Origin: a virus
IMG/VR virus record: IMGVR_UViG_3300044730_000222
Span: 37,846-101,845 of that record
DNA length: 64,000 nt
Direction: 5' to 3' (one strand)
Shown here: positions 4,753-51,962 of the stretch, piece by piece
Numbering within the stretch: position 1 is the first letter of the stretch
Layout: the number at the start of each line of letters is the position of its first letter
The notes under the pieces: model-generated
What the model saw: the letters and a program-made list of their open reading frames with translations, nothing else
What the model was told of the DNA's origin: nothing
Database searches by the model: none
Translations under genes and position numbers: made by a program

Positions 4753-5703
4753 CTATCTCTTTTCTGACAGTACTATTGTACTATCATTCTCAGAATTTGT
4801 CAAACCATACATTTTCTTAAAGTCAAAACCTATAAGTTTTTCGTATGCCTTTAAATGCCTATAGTTTCCAGCACCAAAGGTACCTTTTTCTATACCGCAT
4901 AAAACACGCTTTTGCTTATCTTTTGAGATATCCTCTATCTCTTTCCATGATAATTTTCTTATATTACGGTCTTTCCATATTTTTTTATAGTTACCACGGT
5001 GATAAAAATGATGAAGTATTGTCACGCTTGGAGAATAAATATCCCAACCTCTTGTCCAAGCCCTCATAGCAAAACATATTTCTTCTCCAAAGAATGATAT
5101 CTCTGGATCATATGGAACTTCTTCTACAATGCTTCCAAGGGTAAAAACAAAACCAGCAAGTATGGTGCTTGAAACTTCTGGATAGGATTTATTCTTGTCG
5201 GACAGTTCAACTCTTTTAGCCGTCCACTCATTTCTCCTGTTTAGGCTTGGCACTTGTTTAGTTGCATAAGGGGGCTTGTCTTTGTCTTTTGTAATGTAAC
5301 TAATAACATTGTTTGTTTCAACATAAAATCCTGGTGGAAAATGAGACAAGATTATATTTTTATTTTTAGCAATTTCTTGAGCCTTTTGTAATTGACTGAT
5401 GCACATTATATCCCAATTCTTTTCAAAAATTGTATGCGAATCAATCTGAAGATAATAGTCTTGCTCAGAATAAAGAGACATTGCTTTTGCTCTTGCAAAC
5501 CCCGCACCCCTTGCTTCTCTTGGGTGCATAGTAATAATCTTAGAATTTTTTAACCAAGACAAATCTGGAATTTCTTTATCAAAGTCTTGTATTACTAAAC
5601 CAAAATATATTTCATTTAGTTTTGATGCGTTATCAATAGCAGACTTGATAGTTCTAACTAACTCAGGATCACGATAACTTGCTATTGATATAAAAATGCT
5701 CAT
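4753..5703 (-). CDS. GlcNAc-type glycosyltransferase (GT60-like)
   Basis: A 316-residue protein opening with ISIASYRDPELVRTIKSA, the hallmark of the Glycosyltransferase (GlcNAc) family (PF11397, GT60-like). LQIDSHTIFEKNWD supplies the D-x-H metal-binding motif, and FGEEICFAMRAWTRGWDIY with LHHFYHRG are the conserved acceptor-side motifs. The enzymes transfer GlcNAc to protein or glycan acceptors. It is a second glycan enzyme, separate from the plus-strand cassette and oppositely oriented. The ATG overlaps the upstream stop as ATGA. Confidence 0.8.
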   Translation of the reverse strand: MSIFISIASYRDPELVRTIKSAIDNASKLNEIYFGLVIQDFDKEIPDLSWLKNSKIITMHPREARGAGFARAKAMSLYSEQDYYLQIDSHTIFEKNWDIMCISQLQKAQEIAKNKNIILSHFPPGFYVETNNVISYITKDKDKPPYATKQVPSLNRRNEWTAKRVELSDKNKSYPEVSSTILAGFVFTLGSIVEEVPYDPEISFFGEEICFAMRAWTRGWDIYSPSVTILHHFYHRGNYKKIWKDRNIRKLSWKEIEDISKDKQKRVLCGIEKGTFGAGNYRHLKAYEKLIGFDFKKMYGLTNSENDSTIVLSEKR

Positions 5704-6191
5704 TGATTATGGGTTGGCCAGTAATATTTACATGGCTCTTTGCGGTCTGGGCAGCATGGAGCATTATTAATACTAGTTACTGCATATTGAAAGTGTACAT
5801 AATACAAAGGATCTTTCTTAAAAAGATTAGCACGATGAGTTGTCACAACCCTAAGAAGTTTATTGTCATCATGCCAGAATGCTGGCACTTCATTACCCCA
5901 GTCTTCCCAACACTGATCTTTTAGATTATTAAGATTAGCCTCATTGTTTTCTGTTTTAATACCACGAAACTTTGCTTGAGCAATCATAGCCTGAACATAC
6001 TCCCACAGACCACGCTCATATCCACGCCACATTAGAACTGCTGGATGATTGCGCCAACCACCAGTTTTATATTTACCAGATAATACATTAAGAATTTGAT
6101 AGCCCTCTAATATCTGTTTATTTAGTCTCTTATTATCAAGCATGTGAGCAGATACATGAAAATCTTTTTGTGGTAAAAATGTTTGCACCAT
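5700..6191 (-). CDS. pyrimidine-dimer DNA glycosylase family protein (MSMEG_6728-like)
   Basis: A 163-residue protein of the Pyr_excise family (PF03013), to which T4 endonuclease V (DenV) belongs. The N-terminus QTFLPQKDF with LDNKRLNKQILEGYQIL, and the later WRNHPAVLMWRGYE, match the actinobacterial MSMEG_6728-type branch. DenV uses the alpha-amino group of Thr2 as its nucleophile; residue 2 here is Val and Thr is residue 4, so catalysis by the DenV mechanism is not assured. It probably acts in repair of UV damage, plausible for a phage of sunlit water. It has its own promoter with an overlapping inverted repeat. Confidence 0.7.
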   Translation of the reverse strand: MVQTFLPQKDFHVSAHMLDNKRLNKQILEGYQILNVLSGKYKTGGWRNHPAVLMWRGYERGLWEYVQAMIAQAKFRGIKTENNEANLNNLKDQCWEDWGNEVPAFWHDDNKLLRVVTTHRANLFKKDPLYYVHFQYAVTSINNAPCCPDRKEPCKYYWPTHNQ

Positions 6192-6210
6192 ATCTCCTTT
6201 TTAATAAACA

Positions 6211-6239
6211 ACTATACACTGTTTTGTGTATAAAATCAA
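6211..6239 (-). promoter_or_regulatory. promoter with overlapping operator-like inverted repeat
   Basis: On the minus strand, TTGATT (6234-6239), a 17-base spacer and TATAGT (6211-6216) precede the glycosylase gene. A perfect inverted repeat TATACAC-N6-GTGTATA (6213-6232) covers the spacer and most of the -10, the position expected for a repressor site. Confidence 0.55.
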
Positions 6240-6242
6240 ATA

Positions 6243-6944
6243 CTACTTAAATATTTTTCTTGCTCTTTTTGATGAGTAATATCCATAAATTTTTGTTTTT
6301 AACTTATCAATTTCAAATAATGTTTTATCCTTTCCAGGATTTGTAAATTCAGACTCCCAAGACTCTCTTTTAAATGGTATAAGTTGAACCATAGGTGTGC
6401 CTTTTTCAATTACTCCCTCAAAACCATCTTTGATAAAAAATGGACAGTTTATCGGAGTAGTTAAAATATCTGTATCAACAATACCAGCAATTGATCTTAT
6501 TGGTAGATTCTCATATGCTGGTGGATGAATAAACATCGTTGACCAGCCTGGTGGAGTTTTTATGTTCCATCCATGCAAATACTTAAATGCTGGCGTACTA
6601 AATCCATCTGGTATTCTGAAACCAGAAAGTTGCTCATTAGGCCATGCGTCAATTATTGGCTCAGATATTTCTATATGGCTAATCAAGGGTTGATAGTTTA
6701 CTTGTCTAACTAAAATATCTGAGCATAGCGTTATTATATAGCCAGAAGTGAACATGTCAATGGTTGGAGCGCATTGTTTTACCGTTATATTTGCTGCTGG
6801 ATTTATTACAAGTTCTTTGTTTCCAATATACTTTGAAATATTTTTCCACCACTCTGGAACAAGTTTTGCTGCAGGAATAGGCCTTTCTCTAACATTAAAA
6901 ACATGATCATTTTTTGCTTCAAAAATAATTTTGTTTGCTTTCAT
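6243..6944 (-). CDS. DUF6065-like family protein, paralogue 1
   Basis: A 233-residue protein of unknown function, clearly homologous to the one at 11426-12130 and more distantly to that at 15342-16138. Shared landmarks: PEWWKN near residue 30, CAPTIDMFTSGYII, KTPPGWSTMFIHPP, GIVDTD, and EKGTPMVQLIPFKRESW. The last three correspond to TPPG, GVIETD and the pre-C-terminal strand of DUF6065. No catalytic motif is recognised. The fold is probably all-beta. The start overlaps the stop of a 44-residue Cys-rich protein, suggesting the two are made together. Confidence 0.6.
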   Translation of the reverse strand: MKANKIIFEAKNDHVFNVRERPIPAAKLVPEWWKNISKYIGNKELVINPAANITVKQCAPTIDMFTSGYIITLCSDILVRQVNYQPLISHIEISEPIIDAWPNEQLSGFRIPDGFSTPAFKYLHGWNIKTPPGWSTMFIHPPAYENLPIRSIAGIVDTDILTTPINCPFFIKDGFEGVIEKGTPMVQLIPFKRESWESEFTNPGKDKTLFEIDKLKTKIYGYYSSKRARKIFK

Positions 6945-7304: not shown

Positions 7305-7586
7305 TTACTCCATTGTTAATGCTTGCCAGGTATAAGACCAATCTTTTTTAGTCTTATGATTGTTAAACTCTTTAGATATTTCTCCGCTTTCTAGATAAAT
7401 ACCGCCCCAAACGCCCCACTCTTTACCAGACACACCAACAGCAAAACATTGTCTTGCTACTGGGCATGTTCTACAAAGAGCATCTACAAATTCTCTTGAC
7501 TCTAAATTTTCTTCATAGTTATCAAAAAATATATTTGTGTCAGATCCAAGACATTCAGCATTATCTTTCCATAAATGCTGTTTCAT
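7305..7586 (-). CDS. WhiB-family iron-sulfur transcription factor
   Basis: A 93-residue Wbl protein. The four cluster-ligating cysteines are C12, C38, C41 and C47 (LCRTCPVARQC), followed by the invariant turn GVWGG (58-62). These bind a 4Fe-4S cluster and, in known Wbl proteins, contact the sigma factor of actinobacterial RNA polymerase. The family is essentially restricted to Actinobacteria and their phages, so this is the strongest host marker in the window. It may redirect host transcription or block superinfection, as proposed for mycobacteriophage WhiB proteins; the target here is unknown. The basic C-terminus is short. Confidence 0.9.
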   Translation of the reverse strand: MKQHLWKDNAECLGSDTNIFFDNYEENLESREFVDALCRTCPVARQCFAVGVSGKEWGVWGGIYLESGEISKEFNNHKTKKDWSYTWQALTME

Positions 7587-42536: not shown

Positions 42537-45500
42537 TTAAACCCTTTGTCCCTTAATTCTTTGTGAATCAATTTGTTTAATCTGTGTCATTACTGATCTT
42601 GCAATTTCATCAGGATTTGCACCAGATTTAACATTTACGCTTATACTATAATTATACACTGAATCACCATTGTATGTGCCATCATTTATGGCTTTCATAT
42701 TATCAACACCAAAATCTTTTACAGCATATTTACTCATAATAAATTCTCCAGGGGATAACATGGCTGGTATTGTGTCGCTACCCCTTGCAAATCCTCCAAA
42801 ACCAAAATATTTTGGCTTTACCATTCCACCTTTTGCCAACATCTGCATCTCTCCATAGAATCCACCACCACCACCGCCGCCACTAGGCTTAGAAAGACTT
42901 TGTTGATATGCAATTGCTTGTCCAGTATATCTTGCAGTAGACGCTGCCAAAGATGGATCCATACCCTGAAGAGTTAGTCCAGAAAACATTGCATTCGCTA
43001 TATTTGATGCAGATTCGCCAACAGAAACCGCAGCCGCTACTGCATTATTAATTTCTTCGGTAGTGCCTGCTGCAATTATAGTGCTAATTGCGCCTTCTTT
43101 AATTACTTTTTCTAAGGCTAAGGCGGCAGCAGCCGCATCGGCAGCAGCAATTGCTGCTAGTGCTGCTGCATCTGCTGCTGCTTTGTCTGCTGCTGCTTTA
43201 TTTGGATCACTAGACTCTGAAGAATCTGCAACAACGCATGAGGAAAATGTAGATGATTGCATCAATCCATTAACATATTCTTCTATATAGTTTGCTTTTC
43301 CAGAAGCACACTTTGTCTTTGATACGGACTTTACAACAGTTTTAGTTTCTCTTACTACTGCACCACCACTACTGCCCACTTTATTATTTGCTGAATATGT
43401 TCCTCCCATCGCAATAGCAAGTTGTTTTGCAAGACCAATTGCTCTTTCTAATTCCTTATTAAAATTAAAAGTAGCAAGTTCTGCATCAAGAATTGCCAAT
43501 TCTACATCTCCCCAAGCGTCTTCTTCTGCCTGCAAACCAGCAAGAGCAGCCTCAGTTCTTTGTTGAACTTTTTCTAGTGTTAAACGTGCTGCATCTAATT
43601 TACTGTTTTCTATATCAAGTAGTGCTTGTGCAGGAAGCAATTCACTAAGCCTAATAGTAAGGATTTGGCGCTCTTTAATTTCTATTGCATCAAGTTCAAC
43701 CTTACGAGCCTTTTCAATATTATAAATATCATCTTCAATACCACGAAGAATTAATTGTTGCTGTTCTCTTTGTTCTCCAAGAGTATAAATTTGATCTGCA
43801 AGAACGCTCATTTCTCTATTCTTTATTTCTCTTGCTTGTTCAATTGCATATATTCTATCCTGTAATGCAAGAACTCTGATATCTACTAGTTCTCTTTGTT
43901 CTTCAAGAGCAAATATTTGTTGTCCAATAGCAAATTGTCTATCCTCAATTTGTTTTCTAGTCATACCGTTACTTGCAATAACACGACCAATTTCTTGCTC
44001 TCTTGCTAAACGTAAGTTATCAGATTGATCTCCAACAGCCTTTTGTGCAGCCTCATTTCTCATTTCTTGTGCTAGTTGAGCGGCAGCAGAAATATCGCCT
44101 TGTGATAAAGCATCCGCAAGAGATATTCTTGCTTTTTCTTGATTTGCTATATCCTGGTTTATATCTGATATTTTTTGTAATGATTCTTCTTGTTTATCAT
44201 ATTTTTCATTAATAGAATCAACAACTCTATCCATTAACTCTAACTCATTTGAAAGGTCGGATGATTCTTCCTGTAAGGCAGCAATTGGCCGTTCAAAATT
44301 AATATCAATACTACGAGACAATGCATCTATTTGAGACTGTAAATCTTCAATTGGTTTACTAAATTCTAGTTCAACACTGCGAGATAAGTCATCAGATAAC
44401 TCTTGTAGTCTTTCAATTTCTCTAGAAAGATCTGTTTCAATGCTGCGAGATAATTTTTCAGAAGCATCCTGTGCTGTCTTTAACGGTACATCAAACCTTA
44501 ACTCTATGGCAAGTTTTGCTTTATCAATTTCAGTTTGAATTGCATCAATTCTCTTTTGAATTACATTTACCGCTTCTTGTTCTACACGGACACGCTCCTC
44601 AGCAACCCTAACTGCTTCTTCTGCCTTTCTTTTTTCTGATCTAAACTGACGCTCAATTAATGCACGGCGCAACTGAAAATATTTATTTACTTGCGAAGAA
44701 ATTTCATCAATTTGTTTTTTAATTGCAGCAACTATATCTACCTTCATATCAATGCCTAATTGTAAGTCTGCATTAATTGTTACACCTTCAAGTACATCAA
44801 AAATATCTTTAATCTTATTTGCTATTTCTTCTGATGGTACTGCTCCAGATAGTAAATCACTAATTCCCTGCGCTAACTCTGGAGTATTTGCAATTTGTGC
44901 AAGTTGCTCTTTTGTAAAAGTACCGACGCTAATTCCTAATTCTTCTGATAATATTTTTTGTAACTCACCAGTTGTTGCACCAGTAAGTGCAGCAAGCGTT
45001 GTTTGCAGTTCAGTTGTTTTATCTCTAGTGGCTTGGGCAGTTTGTCTTAATGCTAAATTAAGAAGTTCTACCTCTTTCTTAGCCCGTTCTGCCTCATCTG
45101 CCATTGCTTTTAATTCATCTGGCTTAATGTCTTTACTTACAATAGCAATAGCCAATGATTCATCCTTGATCATTTCTAGTGCTTGACCATACTCAACACC
45201 AGCAGCACGTAGTTTTAAAAATGCTTGACGTTGTGCAATAGCCCCTTCTGCAGTGCGTTTTTGACTTTCTTGAAATTCTCCAATTGGTAACTCTGCAAAC
45301 GCCTCATTGGCAGCCTTGCCAAACTCAGTTAATACAACCTTGCCCTTCTTGGTGACCGTAATAAATTGAGCCATGGTTTCTTTATCTAAACCACTAACAA
45401 AATCTAAGAATCCTCTATTGGCCTGTATATCTTTACCAATTACTTTTCCTTTTTTATCTTTTGCTATAACACCCTCTTGTAGTTGCTGTAGCACACCAGA

Positions 45501-48500
45501 GAATTTATTTATTCCTTTACCCTGGGTAATTCTAAGAAGTTCTTTTACTCCACCCTCGGCATTAATAGCAGCATCACGAACCATCTTAAGTTTGTTGAGA
45601 AGATTATCAAGTGCTGTGTCTCTTCCTGCTCTATCCTTCTTTGTTCCATCGCCAGCGCCTGGTGGAACAACATCTGTTGTTGTAGGTGTACCATAAAATG
45701 TTTCAACATCAAGTTGTGCTAATTCTTCATCAGTTTTACCTTTAGCGCCCTCCATTGAAAAACTATAAACAATATCATATACTTCTTTATATTTTTTGCC
45801 CTGAGATGCTTCCATGGCTTTTTTCTTAGCATATCTGCTTAGCCATTCTGCTTTTGCTTCTGGATCCTGGAAATCTGTTCTAAACTGATAAAAAGTTAAA
45901 TATTTTTGTATTGCCTCTTTACGAACCTCTGGTGCAAGTTTTTTATAGTACTCCCAGTTTTCAATAATAGTATCAACGCCACCCTCTGGGAATCCAGCAG
46001 TTTTAAGAGCAATGGCTATTTCTTTGGGATCTTTAGAAAAATCAATTTCTTCTATTGCTGCTAGATCTCTGGAGAATTGCAATAGGCCGTCTTCTCCAAG
46101 ACCTTCAAGCATTACCTTCATATTTATTTCAGTACCATTAAGTTCACTAATTACAGCAATTGCTTTTGATGTTTGATCAAATTGTTCTGTTGGTAAAGCG
46201 GTAACTTTTAAGAAAATGTTTTGTGCTATTGCTTTTGCTTTTTTACCACTTCCAATTCCAGCAAGCAAAGATTGTAATTCAAATGTTTTTGCAGCACCTT
46301 GTGTTTTAACTGATAAGTTTAAAGCAGCACTAAGTGTTCCAAGATTTCCGCCTTCTGTACCACCAAACATCCTAATAATTGATTCAATTTGATCTGGGTT
46401 TGCTAATTTGTTTGCAAGCAAAAGTTGCATCTCTACTTCAAAGTCTTGGGCAGCCTCTGCGGATTCAAATCCTGCTTTTTTAAACTCATCCTGTCTAAAC
46501 GCATTTTCATCACTAATTTTTGAAAGTGTTTCAAGCAATCTATTTGCTGAAGTTTCAAAATCTGTGCCTTTAAAAATATCCTTAACTTTGCCTTTTAATG
46601 CATCAAAATATGCATCTTCTTCGGCATCTCCACCAAAAAGAGATCTCGTAGTTGTATTTTGTATTTCTTTAAATTGTTTTAATGAAATCTTAAGAGATTT
46701 AGCAACTTCAGCAGTTAATGTTTTTTCTCCAGCAATCTGTTGCGAAATAAGCATGTTGATCTCTTGCTGTATTCCAAGTTGTTCTTCTTTATCCTTGGTC
46801 ATAGCAAGTTGGTCTTTTTTAGCCTTTATTTGTTTTTCATAATAAATAGTAAATGCATCCAATTGTGCTTGAGCAAACTCTGCGCTTGTGCCAGCAAGTC
46901 CTGCAAGTTGTGCTGGAGCCTTGCGCCCCCCACCCACAACATCAGTTTCTTTAAGAAGTTCCCGTGCTTTTTTTCCTGATTCTTGGATTAGGTTAACCCT
47001 AGCCTTTAGTGGCTCTCTTAGCAAATCTTCTCCATTAGGACCAACAAGCATAGTTAATTCGCCAGTAATTCTTGCATATAATCCAGCATCTCCAAGATTA
47101 GTAGAGATCTGCTCTGCAACACTTCTGGCTTGTTCTGCTGTCATTACACCATCAGAAATATATGCACCCAATTGTAAAGCAAAGTCTTTTGCTGCTTTTT
47201 CTGTTCCATATACATCTTTGTTTGTCATAAATGCTTTATTAACTTGTTTGCCAATATCAGATGATAAGAACTGACTTCCAAACTGCCTTCCTACACGTCC
47301 TGCTTCATTATATTGTCCTAATACCCCGCTAGTTCTTCTTGTTGCCATTAACTCTGAAGCGCCAACTTTGCCAGTAATTTCAGAAACCTTTTTCATTTGC
47401 TCGGTTGTTGCAGTAATGCTTCTTATAAACTGTTCTTCTTTTCTTGCTCTTTCTGCCATTATTCTATTACCAGCATAGATTATTCCTGCAAATGCAAGGA
47501 CTGCAGCACCAGCAGCAACATATGGATTCATTAACAATGGAGCAAAACTTGCTAAGAAAGATGCACCCATCAATCCCATTCCAAGACCAGTATTGCCTGT
47601 TGCAAAGGCACCCATTGAGGCAACTCCTAGTCCAGCGCTAACTCCGCCAGCAATTTTACCAACCTTTGCTTTTCTTTCTGCTTGTTGAGTTTTCTTTTTA
47701 TCTTCAGCGCTTTGCTGAATCATTGCTGTTTCGTTCTTAATGGCATTAAGCCTTCTTGTTTCCCATCCACGTTTTGCAGCCTGAGATCTTTTTTCTTTTG
47801 CCGCCTCTTCTTGTGGACTTAAAATCATATATGATCTAGCAGCAACATTTCTTTTCTTTGCTGCAGCGCTTAATCCTGCAGACTGAGACTTGACTTCTGA
47901 ATCACCAACACCAAAACTTTGTGCCTTTTCCCCAGCAATCATTGCCTGAATTAATGGCTTATTGGCTGGATCTTGTGCTGACTCTGCAGGGATAACGGCC
48001 TCTCCAGGAGTAAGCATTGCAGGTACGGTGTCTGTTCCTTTTGCATAATATTTTACATTTTTTGTTCCACGATTAAATTTCTTTGGAAGTTTTGATGTTG
48101 CACCCGCTGCTCCTGCCTTACCACCAACAAAAAATCCTGGATTAGTAGCAGCCAAACGAGCAGCAGCAGCAGAAGCCTGATTGTATGCTATAGCAAGTTG
48201 TCTTGCAGCGGTAGCCTCAATATTAAATACCTCTATTAATTTTGTATGACCAGTGTTCATTGCTGCTGTCATTGAAACATTTTCTAATTCAGCAGTTGTC
48301 ATATAATTAAAAGTTGAACCAAGTACGGTAGATGCACCTGTTGCTTTTCTCATTATCATAGTAAAGCCCCATACTGCTTTAACAGTATTTCCTACTAAGT
48401 TACCAAACAGACCAAGGGCCATAAGTACTGCTGGAAAAGCAGTAGCAAATACTAATATAAATCTTTTTGTTCCATCTCCAAGTTCATTAAAGTTTTCAAT

Positions 48501-50138
48501 TATTCTACCAACAAACTTAAGAACTGGAAGCATTGACTCTAAGAATAATTTTCCAAGTGGAAGAAGTTGTAGTTTTACCTCTTCTAATGTTTTTGTAAAC
48601 TGAACACCAATAGCCTCTTCAACTTTACCTAACTCTCTTTCAGATAAAATTGCTAGTTCTTCTGTGCTTGCAGACATTAAATCTAATACTCTAGATGCCT
48701 GTGTTCCATCTTTTATAACATTTTGGAATAGAGTAGACAGACGAGCAAACTGGAATTTACCAAATAATTGCTCAATAGCACGAGCACGATTTAGTGGATC
48801 TAGAGTGTCTAATGCTTGTGCAAAACCAACAACAATAGCACGAAGATTTCCAGCATTGGCTTCTACAATTCCTTTAATATTAATTCCAAATCCAGCAAGC
48901 ATTTCTGATGCCTTATCTGTTGGATTAATAAGAGAAGCAAGGCCAGACTTTAATGCGTTTGCACCTTCAGATGCATTAATACCGCCTTCTTTCATAGCGG
49001 TTAAGAAAAATGCTAAGTCTTTAACATCTCCGCCAAGTTGTCTAATAATAGGAGCAACTTTAGGAATTGCAATGGTGATATCATCAAGCGATACAACAGT
49101 TTGGTTTTCAACTGCGTTTAAAAAGTCAATACTAGATGCTAAATCTTCTGTAGAAATTTGAAGAGCATTTTGCAAAGAAATAGTTGTTTCTAGTGCCTGT
49201 TGTTGCTCAATTTGTCCAAGTACTGCAAGTTTGTTTGCTTGAGTAACCTGTGCTTCTAATGCCTTGCCACCAAAACCTGCTGCTGCAGCATCCGCAGCCA
49301 TTTCCATAGTATCTTTGATCGGAATACCAAGTTTAGCAAACTCTTGTCCAATTCGCATAATATTATTAACTGCTGCATTTGTTTCTGTTTCACTTGTAAA
49401 AAGATCGCCGTAAACACGACGAAAACGGAGTGTTGCCATTTCCATTTCTCTAAAGACTTTTGCAGAAGTAACTCCAAGCATAACTAGTGGCATCGTCAAA
49501 CCAACCATCAACTGACGGCCTGCCCACTGTGTATTTTTACCCCAGTTAATTAGTCCTGTAGCACCCTGTCGCATTGTTGCATTTAGTATCTGCATTCTTT
49601 GTGCTGCCAACTGAGTTTTTGTAGCAAAGTCATCCATTGACTTAAGAGTTGTTGGAGTAATCCTTAAGCCTTCAGTCCCACCAGCAATTCCAGGTTTTGT
49701 TAATCTAATCCACTGAGATTGTAATAGTTTTACTCTATCTTCATACGCTCTACGTAAAATTGTTCTTTCTTGTGCAAACGCATTTCTAATTAACCCTACA
49801 CGCTTGCTTAACGTTTTGCCTAATCCACCCTCTAAAAGTCCTGCAGCAGAATATCTAGCATACTCACGTAGAGTTAGTTTGTTTCGCTCTAGGGCTGTTG
49901 TAAATCTTTCGGTAGTTCCAGTAATTCTTGCTTGGGCTGCAGACAAACCCTGAATAGAATTTACCTGTTGAATTAGTCTTGAGTTAATTGCCTCTTGACT
50001 AATTGCGGCATTACGATTGCCACGAACTACGGCTTGATTAAATTCAGAAAGTGCTGCTTGCAGACGACGAAGTTCTGCAAGCGATTGGCCAGTATTAACA
50101 TTAACATTAATGTTACTGTTATAATTATCTACTGCCAA
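42537..50138 (-). CDS. tape measure protein
   Basis: A 2533-residue tape measure protein, which by the usual rule implies a long tail. TTG start after GAAGGTG. The N-terminal coiled coil is followed by ATKTQLAAQRMQILNATMRQ and a tape-measure core (KVFREMEMATLRFRRVYGDL; FKFARLSTL-like FGKFQFARLSTLFQ). A hydrophobic segment lies near residue 880 (NPYVAAGAAVLAFAGIIYAG). Long coiled coil spans about 1780-2200 with two internal repeat families. The motif DTVPAMLTPGEAVI (near 700) recurs as DTIPAMLSPGEFIM (near 2457). Confidence 0.92.
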   Translation of the reverse strand: MAVDNYNSNINVNVNTGQSLAELRRLQAALSEFNQAVVRGNRNAAISQEAINSRLIQQVNSIQGLSAAQARITGTTERFTTALERNKLTLREYARYSAAGLLEGGLGKTLSKRVGLIRNAFAQERTILRRAYEDRVKLLQSQWIRLTKPGIAGGTEGLRITPTTLKSMDDFATKTQLAAQRMQILNATMRQGATGLINWGKNTQWAGRQLMVGLTMPLVMLGVTSAKVFREMEMATLRFRRVYGDLFTSETETNAAVNNIMRIGQEFAKLGIPIKDTMEMAADAAAAGFGGKALEAQVTQANKLAVLGQIEQQQALETTISLQNALQISTEDLASSIDFLNAVENQTVVSLDDITIAIPKVAPIIRQLGGDVKDLAFFLTAMKEGGINASEGANALKSGLASLINPTDKASEMLAGFGINIKGIVEANAGNLRAIVVGFAQALDTLDPLNRARAIEQLFGKFQFARLSTLFQNVIKDGTQASRVLDLMSASTEELAILSERELGKVEEAIGVQFTKTLEEVKLQLLPLGKLFLESMLPVLKFVGRIIENFNELGDGTKRFILVFATAFPAVLMALGLFGNLVGNTVKAVWGFTMIMRKATGASTVLGSTFNYMTTAELENVSMTAAMNTGHTKLIEVFNIEATAARQLAIAYNQASAAAARLAATNPGFFVGGKAGAAGATSKLPKKFNRGTKNVKYYAKGTDTVPAMLTPGEAVIPAESAQDPANKPLIQAMIAGEKAQSFGVGDSEVKSQSAGLSAAAKKRNVAARSYMILSPQEEAAKEKRSQAAKRGWETRRLNAIKNETAMIQQSAEDKKKTQQAERKAKVGKIAGGVSAGLGVASMGAFATGNTGLGMGLMGASFLASFAPLLMNPYVAAGAAVLAFAGIIYAGNRIMAERARKEEQFIRSITATTEQMKKVSEITGKVGASELMATRRTSGVLGQYNEAGRVGRQFGSQFLSSDIGKQVNKAFMTNKDVYGTEKAAKDFALQLGAYISDGVMTAEQARSVAEQISTNLGDAGLYARITGELTMLVGPNGEDLLREPLKARVNLIQESGKKARELLKETDVVGGGRKAPAQLAGLAGTSAEFAQAQLDAFTIYYEKQIKAKKDQLAMTKDKEEQLGIQQEINMLISQQIAGEKTLTAEVAKSLKISLKQFKEIQNTTTRSLFGGDAEEDAYFDALKGKVKDIFKGTDFETSANRLLETLSKISDENAFRQDEFKKAGFESAEAAQDFEVEMQLLLANKLANPDQIESIIRMFGGTEGGNLGTLSAALNLSVKTQGAAKTFELQSLLAGIGSGKKAKAIAQNIFLKVTALPTEQFDQTSKAIAVISELNGTEINMKVMLEGLGEDGLLQFSRDLAAIEEIDFSKDPKEIAIALKTAGFPEGGVDTIIENWEYYKKLAPEVRKEAIQKYLTFYQFRTDFQDPEAKAEWLSRYAKKKAMEASQGKKYKEVYDIVYSFSMEGAKGKTDEELAQLDVETFYGTPTTTDVVPPGAGDGTKKDRAGRDTALDNLLNKLKMVRDAAINAEGGVKELLRITQGKGINKFSGVLQQLQEGVIAKDKKGKVIGKDIQANRGFLDFVSGLDKETMAQFITVTKKGKVVLTEFGKAANEAFAELPIGEFQESQKRTAEGAIAQRQAFLKLRAAGVEYGQALEMIKDESLAIAIVSKDIKPDELKAMADEAERAKKEVELLNLALRQTAQATRDKTTELQTTLAALTGATTGELQKILSEELGISVGTFTKEQLAQIANTPELAQGISDLLSGAVPSEEIANKIKDIFDVLEGVTINADLQLGIDMKVDIVAAIKKQIDEISSQVNKYFQLRRALIERQFRSEKRKAEEAVRVAEERVRVEQEAVNVIQKRIDAIQTEIDKAKLAIELRFDVPLKTAQDASEKLSRSIETDLSREIERLQELSDDLSRSVELEFSKPIEDLQSQIDALSRSIDINFERPIAALQEESSDLSNELELMDRVVDSINEKYDKQEESLQKISDINQDIANQEKARISLADALSQGDISAAAQLAQEMRNEAAQKAVGDQSDNLRLAREQEIGRVIASNGMTRKQIEDRQFAIGQQIFALEEQRELVDIRVLALQDRIYAIEQAREIKNREMSVLADQIYTLGEQREQQQLILRGIEDDIYNIEKARKVELDAIEIKERQILTIRLSELLPAQALLDIENSKLDAARLTLEKVQQRTEAALAGLQAEEDAWGDVELAILDAELATFNFNKELERAIGLAKQLAIAMGGTYSANNKVGSSGGAVVRETKTVVKSVSKTKCASGKANYIEEYVNGLMQSSTFSSCVVADSSESSDPNKAAADKAAADAAALAAIAAADAAAAALALEKVIKEGAISTIIAAGTTEEINNAVAAAVSVGESASNIANAMFSGLTLQGMDPSLAASTARYTGQAIAYQQSLSKPSGGGGGGGFYGEMQMLAKGGMVKPKYFGFGGFARGSDTIPAMLSPGEFIMSKYAVKDFGVDNMKAINDGTYNGDSVYNYSISVNVKSGANPDEIARSVMTQIKQIDSQRIKGQRV
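43671..43922 (-). repeat. 4 x 21-residue coiled-coil repeat in tape measure
   Basis: Residues 2073-2156 form four exact 21-residue units beginning QQIFALEEQRE, DRIYAIEQARE, DQIYTLGEQRE and DDIYNIEKARK. Each is three heptads. Confidence 0.85.
44256..44453 (-). repeat. 3 x 22-residue repeat in tape measure
   Basis: Residues 1896-1961: units beginning LSRSIETDLSREIERLQ, LSRSVELEFSKPIEDLQ and LSRSIDINFERPIAALQ. A divergent fourth copy (AIELRFDVPLKTAQD) lies just before. Confidence 0.85.
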
Positions 50139-50158: not shown

Positions 50159-50482
50159 TTATTTCATTGCATTGAGCACATCGGCTGCATCTGCAAGTTG
50201 GATTCCAGAGGCTGTCTCTATGACCTGATAAACGGTAGGAAGATCAATACTATCTTCTACCTTTTTACGATCTTCTGCATATGCTGGTGCAAATTGCTGG
50301 AAAGCAATCATTACACAGTCAATGAGAATATCCATAGACTTATCATTGTCATCCGCCACTGCTGCCAACTCTTGAAACTTCTTAGTGAATGGCTTCAAAA
50401 GTGAGATTTTTAAAGGCTTAATCTCTATTTCTGTACCATCAATAAGTTTGATTTTCTTTGGTTCATGAGTTGTTACTGCCAC
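50159..50482 (-). CDS. tail assembly chaperone, short form
   Basis: A 107-residue protein with KKIKLIDGTEIEIKPLKISL, homologous to the N-terminal part of the next upstream gene (KIQLVDGTEIEIVPLKIKYL). The following helical region also aligns (DILIDCVMIAFQQFAPA versus DHLLKCAQIAMKQYRPE). GTG start after AGGAGG. It sits just before the tape measure, where the gpG/gpGT-type chaperones lie. Here the short form is a separate gene with its own promoter. Confidence 0.7.
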   Translation of the reverse strand: MAVTTHEPKKIKLIDGTEIEIKPLKISLLKPFTKKFQELAAVADDNDKSMDILIDCVMIAFQQFAPAYAEDRKKVEDSIDLPTVYQVIETASGIQLADAADVLNAMK

Positions 50483-50508
50483 TTTTCCTCCTATATTAGG
50501 TTATGTCA

Positions 50509-50517
50509 ATTATAGCA
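50509..50517 (-). promoter_or_regulatory. extended -10 promoter for short chaperone
   Basis: TGCTATAAT on the minus strand, followed by a leader of about 20 bases that contains AGGAGG. Confidence 0.6.
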
Positions 50518-50538
50518 TAAAAAGCCTATTTTTTAAAA

Positions 50539-51252
50539 TTATGACTTCATAACAGATGGGTCTCGCATATCATCATAATCTAGACCCATACCAATTCCAA
50601 ACCCAACCTTTTTAGCATTTTCTCCCTGTAGGGCTAGAATATCATTGCTATCTGTTGCCTTACCTTTACTGAATACCCTTGCTTTCATGTCTTCCCATTC
50701 TTTCTGGCCCTTAGACTGACCAGACTGAGCATCTAGATCTACCCCTTGCATTGCTGCTGCAAATTTTTTATCTTGATAATCTGACTCTCTTTTACTTTCC
50801 AAGGTAGCCATTAATTCTGGCATAGATAATGATAACTCTAACTCTTCATAATCTTTCCATATACCCAGCAAAAATACCTCTGATTCTAAAGTTGCTAAAT
50901 CTAGTTCAGACCATTTTTTTCCACTTTTTTGTGCTTGTTCTTTTACTGGTTCTGTAGATTTTTTATTTACCTTAATATTAGCAGCAACACCAATTAGTTT
51001 ATATAGATTATGAATATCTAAATTATCAGCAACATCTTCTGGTCTACCCGCCAATTCTGGGCGATACTGCTTCATTGCTATTTGTGCACATTTTAATAAA
51101 TGATCAATTGATTCTTCATCTGTTCTTTTGGAATCTATGTCCTCAAAAAACAACATAAACTCTCTAAGATATTTAATTTTCAATGGAACTATTTCTATCT
51201 CTGTTCCATCAACCAATTGTATTTTATCTTTTTTATAAATTTCTGTAGCCAT
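50539..51252 (-). CDS. tail assembly chaperone, long form
   Basis: A 237-residue protein. The N-terminal 100 residues are homologous to the short chaperone at 50159; the C-terminal half is charged and helical (SELDLATLESEVFLLGIWKD; EWEDMKARVFSKGKATDSND) and would bind the tape measure. The ATG at 51252 is chosen because TAGAAT lies seven bases upstream; an ATG at 51276 lies on the promoter. No slippery heptamer joins it to the next gene. Confidence 0.7.
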   Translation of the reverse strand: MATEIYKKDKIQLVDGTEIEIVPLKIKYLREFMLFFEDIDSKRTDEESIDHLLKCAQIAMKQYRPELAGRPEDVADNLDIHNLYKLIGVAANIKVNKKSTEPVKEQAQKSGKKWSELDLATLESEVFLLGIWKDYEELELSLSMPELMATLESKRESDYQDKKFAAAMQGVDLDAQSGQSKGQKEWEDMKARVFSKGKATDSNDILALQGENAKKVGFGIGMGLDYDDMRDPSVMKS

Positions 51253-51259
51253 TTTATCT

Positions 51260-51268
51260 ATTCTATCA
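51260..51268 (-). promoter_or_regulatory. extended -10 promoter, leaderless (long chaperone)
   Basis: TGATAGAAT on the minus strand, seven bases from the ATG at 51252. It directly follows the terminator of the tail-tube gene. Confidence 0.55.
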
Positions 51269-51271
51269 TAC

Positions 51272-51308
51272 AACAAAACCCACCCCGTTTAAGGGATGGG
51301 CTTGTTAT
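51272..51308 (-). terminator. terminator after tail tube gene
   Basis: On the minus strand AACAAGCCCATCCC pairs with GGGGTGGGTTTTGTT around TTAAAC, with a U-rich 3' arm. It is placed 20 bases after the tail-tube stop. Confidence 0.7.
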
Positions 51309-51326: not shown

Positions 51327-51962
51327 TTATGATGCTGGAGTCCAAGTACGGTCAATAAGTTTGCCGTACGAAGCACTACTGTCTTCAGGAAGAAGACGGA
51401 AAGAAACCTCAAACATGGAAGGTTCGTCACGCTTTGCGGATACTGTTACATTCTCAATTGAGAGTGCACGGTACGCAGCGTAAACACGCTCTACGTATGC
51501 GGAGTCTTCGCAGTCTCCAGTTCCAGGTCCAACAGCAACAATTCCACGCTCAACTGGGCATTCTCCAATGTCTCCTGCGGAGAGATTAAGAGTTTGTCCT
51601 GCTGAAGTAGACTTGGTTCCTGTTAGGTCGCCGCTTGGAGCAGCAATAGCCAAGAGAAGATTCTCAAGGGTAGCCTCTGCAAAAGCAGTTGCCATATTTA
51701 CTTGCATTCCTTGCTTGTATAACTTAGCAACGTCAAGAAGTTGGTCAACCTGTACTTCACCGAAGTCTGGTTGGAACTGCAATTCAAGACCGTTCATGGT
51801 ATAACCTACGTTTGTAAAATCTGCATCGTCTGCAAGTGTTTCTCTGTAGGACTCTGAAGATGTAAACGCAGGTAGTGAAGTCGAACTCAATGTTGTATCA
51901 GCAACAAAGAAAGCGGCTGCACCAACAATAATGTTGTTTGATGTACCACGTGTATATGCCAT
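51327..51962 (-). CDS. major tail tube protein
   Basis: A 211-residue protein in the expected place (after connectors, before chaperones), with its own promoter and terminator as for a highly expressed structural gene. Motifs: YTMNGLELQFQPDFGEVQVD, VNMATAFAEATLENLLLAIA and VSAKRDEPSMFEVSFRLLPE, a pattern seen in tail tube (gpV-like) proteins of actinophages. Confidence 0.75.
   Translation of the reverse strand: MAYTRGTSNNIIVGAAAFFVADTTLSSTSLPAFTSSESYRETLADDADFTNVGYTMNGLELQFQPDFGEVQVDQLLDVAKLYKQGMQVNMATAFAEATLENLLLAIAAPSGDLTGTKSTSAGQTLNLSAGDIGECPVERGIVAVGPGTGDCEDSAYVERVYAAYRALSIENVTVSAKRDEPSMFEVSFRLLPEDSSASYGKLIDRTWTPAS

Follow-up and report, generated by a model that had tools for sequence, protein, structure and literature searches.

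The window analysed here, a stretch of 64,000 nucleotides, is part of a 101,845-base virus record. On its - strand, a major tail protein gene is followed by two small genes, A and B, and then by an ORF of 2533 aa which is taken, from its length and position, as the tape measure gene (Table 1); the gene at the same place in four Streptomyces phage records (Circinus, EGole, Coruscant and Gilson) is annotated as tape measure. The N-domains of A and B are homologous (36/96 identities, 38%, E 1e-19 by BLASTP). Both proteins match phrog_10504 (E 5.6e-18 for A and 1.7e-16 for B), and phrog_10474 matches within the C part of A, residues 131-209. Searches of Pfam gave nothing above the curated cut-off for A or B, and Rfam gave no match. 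The first-pass annotation had described the short and long tail chaperones as separate, homologous genes. Both ORFs are indeed present, and their similarity is strong already in a pairwise alignment, rather than weak, which had been named as the adverse outcome of a profile comparison. The gene pair thus stands, but the picture of its order does not: transcription goes through the long gene (A) and then the short one (B).

Table 1. Features of the tail chaperone locus, in the order of transcription (window coordinates).
Feature	Position	Strand	Details
Major tail protein gene, upstream of A	51962..51327	-	phrog_2175, E 7.8e-33; phrog_885 (major tail protein), E 6.4e-5
Terminator-like hairpin separating A from the major tail protein gene	51276..51303	-	
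Extended -10 of A, probable leaderless promoter	51260..51268	-	TGATAGAAT, 7 nt before ATG
Gene A, long tail assembly chaperone (predicted)	51252..50539	-	237 aa, ATG at 51252
Domains of gene A			N-domain, residues 1-about 100; C-domain, about 106-237; same frame
Run of seven A, in-frame A_AAA_AAA	50913..50919	-	gene A codons 111-113
Extended -10 before B	50509..50517	-	TGCTATAAT, 26 nt from start
Shine-Dalgarno of B	50487..50492	-	AGGAGG, read from the sequence
Gene B, short tail assembly chaperone (predicted), N-domain only	50482..50159	-	107 aa, GTG
ORF downstream of B, taken as tape measure gene	50138..42537	-	2533 aa; length and position

The predicted model of B (pLDDT 75.6) consists of a beta hairpin and helices, and its best match in BFVD is a protein named tail assembly chaperone (E 1.7e-6, TM 0.77). 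The downstream helices, which had been described as common to the two proteins, agree between the two predicted models. The HK97 chaperone (gp13, 2ob9) is tied first among the PDB rows, at weak scores (Z 4.6 over 89 residues and Z 4.5 over 88), and Foldseek found nothing in the PDB at E 0.001 or better for the A or B model. The profile of B has no sequence match in the PDB; that of A matches six prion chains, which were discarded as chance-level (E 0.69-0.99). The location of A and B between the major tail protein and tape measure genes, the N-domain common to the short and the long protein, and their relation to proteins of that name (Streptomyces phage homologs and the BFVD match) argue for a pair of tail assembly chaperones, and we infer the activity of A and B as the long and short forms. 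The corresponding forms of lambda act at about 30:1, according to PMC5009743.

The host can be approached from another part of the window: a WhiB-family match above the Pfam cut-off, at about 7398-7571 on the - strand, points to an actinobacterium. The window therefore probably belongs to an actinobacterial long-tailed phage, and the uncultured lineage that has the two genes probably consists of actinobacterial phages.

The sequences of A and of B were searched by tblastn against 50,697 phage records. The search with A matched 127 of them, all Streptomyces phages, and its match is split in two pieces in 40/40 among the matches listed; B also matched Streptomyces phages only, at one place per record. 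Circinus, EGole, Coruscant and Gilson have one N-domain ORF, and homology to the C-domain continues in the -1 frame from an overlap with this ORF. Viral contigs were scanned six times, the queries being A, B and N-domains of the frameshift type, which brought the total to 324 rows with the window included; rows overlap on contigs, and the distinct complete genes amount to 144 A, 134 B and 67 of the frameshift type. By profile search, 198 of the 324 rows have the two-gene state (N and C in one frame, then N), and 115 have the frameshift state (a single N with C downstream in the -1 frame), in which no second copy was seen. Nine rows are partial (four with N only, three with C then N, two with N-C) and look like pieces cut at contig ends. 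The last two, L043 and L310, were considered as separate arrangements, a reading which was ruled out: each is the common two-gene state with one frame jump, which breaks B in L043 (5743-6078) and A in L310 (1-647), and these jumps are probably sequencing or assembly indels. No intermediate between the two states was seen among the 324 rows. Six frameshift-type records were searched over their whole length (14-100 kb), and in each of them N and C matched once, with no additional copy.

Two side observations concern these records. The gap between A and B reaches 776 nt in L040 (about 5690-6470), for a median of 50 nt, a possible insertion. In public annotations, the C part of the chaperone is often hypothetical, or started at an internal codon.

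The two states are found at similar base composition, with a median G+C of 0.379 for the two-gene type and 0.390 for the uncultured frameshift type. Base composition as a sufficient cause of the loss of slippage was therefore rejected.

In the frameshift type, a canonical in-frame X_XXY_YYZ heptamer is present in 49 of 60 distinct overlaps (GGGAAAC in 37, CCCAAAT in 10, GGGAAAT and CCCAAAC in one each). The remaining 11, of the Boydwoodruffvirinae type, have at the corresponding place CCCGGAA, which is not a canonical heptamer and is a candidate non-canonical slippery site. Genes of this type (L082, L083, L098-L107) have CCCGGAA where their relatives have CCCAAAT or GGGAAAC. A column-wise scan finds a heptamer at the junction in 42+13 of the 67 frameshift-type genes. 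The same scan finds no conserved slippery site in A, where the best column (54/144) lies deep in the lysine codons of the C-domain, nor in B (best column 19/134). Slippage has thus left no conserved trace in the two-gene group. B is not the start of a longer frameshift product either, a candidate that was ruled out: no open frame continues beyond B, the alternative frames closing within 40 codons in 198/198 cases.

The first-pass annotation had seen no slippery heptamer. This holds for conserved sites, but A of the window itself contains one in-frame A_AAA_AAA (Table 1), after which the -1 frame reads ATG GTC TGA. One may thus ask whether A still frameshifts, A-rich runs near the linker giving a truncated short form, as in dnaX, with B as an extra. 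The early -1 stop in the window would suit such a product, and the column nearest the linker has A_AAA_AAN in 25/144 A genes, so that some slippage to a short product is possible. However, the site of the window is kept in just 2 of 81 rows (the window and L001), the nearby site in no more than those 25 genes, and L002, which is 92% identical over its match, lacks the run at this place; moreover, such runs are common in AT-rich genes. Slippage within A is for these reasons highly unlikely to be the source of the short form.

The signals that precede the two genes are different. Of 102 distinct upstreams of A, 97 have TGNTANNNT with its end 5-9 nt from the start codon, and the other five have TATACT without TG. 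In B, the motif lies 18-38 nt from the start in all 118 distinct upstreams, and in the frameshift type it lies 22-43 nt from the start in 60/60; in shuffled sequence, a distance of 5-10 nt between motif and start arises in 1.9% of cases. The hexamer is TATAAT in 115/118 B upstreams vs 15/97 for A. In the window, TGNTATAAT occurs 14 times on the coding strand and once on the other, for 3.5 expected, which suggests that extended -10 promoters are ordinary in this phage. A and B had been proposed to have their own promoters, which could set their ratio; the conserved extended -10 elements before both genes support the separate promoters. Upstream of A, the 71-nt region of the hairpin folds at -26.8 kcal/mol (z -6.5), and a hairpin is also seen by eye in the listed upstreams of relatives.

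The contrast between A and B in translation initiation exceeds that between their promoters, which the first-pass annotation had missed. In the window, the Shine-Dalgarno duplex energy is -10.2 kcal/mol for B and +0.2 for A. The mean energy of the duplex with the anti-Shine-Dalgarno is -1.87 for A (n=102), -9.97 for B (n=118) and -6.69 for the frameshift type (n=60). The Shine-Dalgarno of B is stronger than that of A in 103/103 distinct pairs, by 8.0 kcal/mol on average; the least difference, 0.5 kcal/mol, is that of one distinct pair. A -10 element 5-9 nt from the start (7 nt in the window), together with almost no Shine-Dalgarno, is what is expected of a leaderless gene, and the mRNA of gene A is thus probably leaderless, as judged from these upstream regions. 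Leaderless mRNAs have been predicted in other actinophages (PMC4351075). Other genes of the window have an extended -10 element 6-9 nt before the start codon (- strand, 57950, 35164, 12613 and 10103), and leaderless mRNAs may therefore be common in this phage.

In a tree of the N-domains, the A sequences form one group (97/96) and the B sequences another (99/94). B groups with the N-domains of the uncultured frameshift type (99/94), the Stanwilliamsviridae-like sequences are apart, and the stem branch of A is long (1.5). The AU test does not reject A and B as a single clade (p 0.26), so a duplication before the split from the uncultured frameshift group and one after it are both compatible with the data. 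The maximum likelihood tree of the tail-tube protein has one change between the two states, with a support of 0 for the key branch. Since both the Stanwilliamsviridae and the uncultured phage group use slippage, the duplication looks derived. The simplest history would be an ancestral slip followed by the duplication, in which B remained close to the former 0-frame protein, and in A the two frames were joined and the Shine-Dalgarno was lost. The idea that duplication took the place of frameshifting, put forward in the first-pass annotation, finds support in these comparisons; the frameshifting relatives, which it did not include, make the change visible.

The reverse history, with two genes as the ancestral state and a later gain of frameshifting by the other groups, would agree with the position of A outside the group formed by B and the uncultured frameshift type. 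However, a stem as long as that of A can pull it outward, and slippage occurs at the same junction in the Stanwilliamsviridae and in the uncultured group, so that this history needs either two gains of the slip or two losses of a copy. In addition, frameshifting of tail chaperones is widely conserved among long-tailed phages (PMC5009743). It is thus quite unlikely that the two-gene state came first.

It is likely that A and B are the long and short chaperones, produced from two genes, and that their ratio is fixed by two initiation signals, not by slippage. B would correspond directly to the ancestral 0-frame protein, and its extended -10 promoter and strong Shine-Dalgarno would yield it in excess. 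A would be the duplicate, its N and C parts now in one frame; its -10 element is weaker and its mRNA probably leaderless, so that little of it would be made, and the terminator-like hairpin would insulate it from the tail-tube gene. B would then coat the tape measure protein, and tail-tube subunits would be recruited through the C-domain of A. The short form is accordingly predicted from the start signals to be abundant and the long form rare, with a ratio probably set at initiation. One can also imagine that A and B each do their own work in tail assembly, for example on different zones of a very long tape measure, instead of being a ratio-controlled pair. Their N-domains are strongly diverged (38% identical) and form separate groups in the tree, and the tape-measure ORF has 2533 aa, but B keeps strong initiation, and the relatives of the frameshift type derive both domain arrangements from a single gene, so that the pair fits the known set of short and long forms. 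Separate jobs are therefore unlikely. As to evolution, the evidence leans towards a lineage that exchanged frameshifting for duplication, in which the long form has a weak, leaderless start and the short one starts from a strong Shine-Dalgarno.

Relatives on either side of the loss of the slip, at similar G+C, allow the purpose of the slip to be examined, whether it fixes a ratio or provides something beyond the reach of the two-gene state. As a related lineage still slips, the switch is directly testable. Annotators should be aware that one long chaperone ORF with a short paralog behind it makes up the whole set. If measurements bear it out, the control of dosage through leaderless as opposed to leadered mRNA would be a simple design rule.

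A and B resemble gpG/gpGT of lambda and gp13 of HK97 in their place between the tail tube and tape measure genes, in the N-domain common to short and long forms, and possibly in fold, given the weak match of the predicted models to the HK97 chaperone. Unlike these systems, in which a programmed frameshift makes the long form, they are two genes; A is a single open frame, and no slippery site is conserved. The Stanwilliamsviridae, which infect Streptomyces (Circinus 34/35, EGole 58/59), have homologous N and C domains in the same gene order, but N occurs once, C lies in the -1 frame, and there is no copy of B. The cluster EA phages of Microbacterium have two chaperone ORFs which appear to be expressed separately, without evident frameshift (PMC7302621); the passage in question is silent on duplication, unlike the case of A and B, and the likeness is one of description only. 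The literature covered, which includes few subscription papers, gave no report of a two-gene arrangement in this chaperone family, nor of chaperone control by leaderless and leadered mRNAs.

T4-like phages are contractile-tailed myophages. They have, like A and B, a short gene and a separate long gene in which the short part is fused to a downstream part, without frameshift (Vladimirov, Gautam and Davidson 2022, as told in a section of PMC10885494), and the principle of replacing the slip in this way is thus already published. A and B belong to another phage lineage, with frameshifting relatives within the same gene family, and they combine a leaderless-like start for A with a strong Shine-Dalgarno for B; the comparison with T4-like phages bears on gene architecture. 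The elements that seem to be new are the two-gene arrangement of this lineage, a related group that still slips, and the contrast between a leaderless-like and a leadered start.
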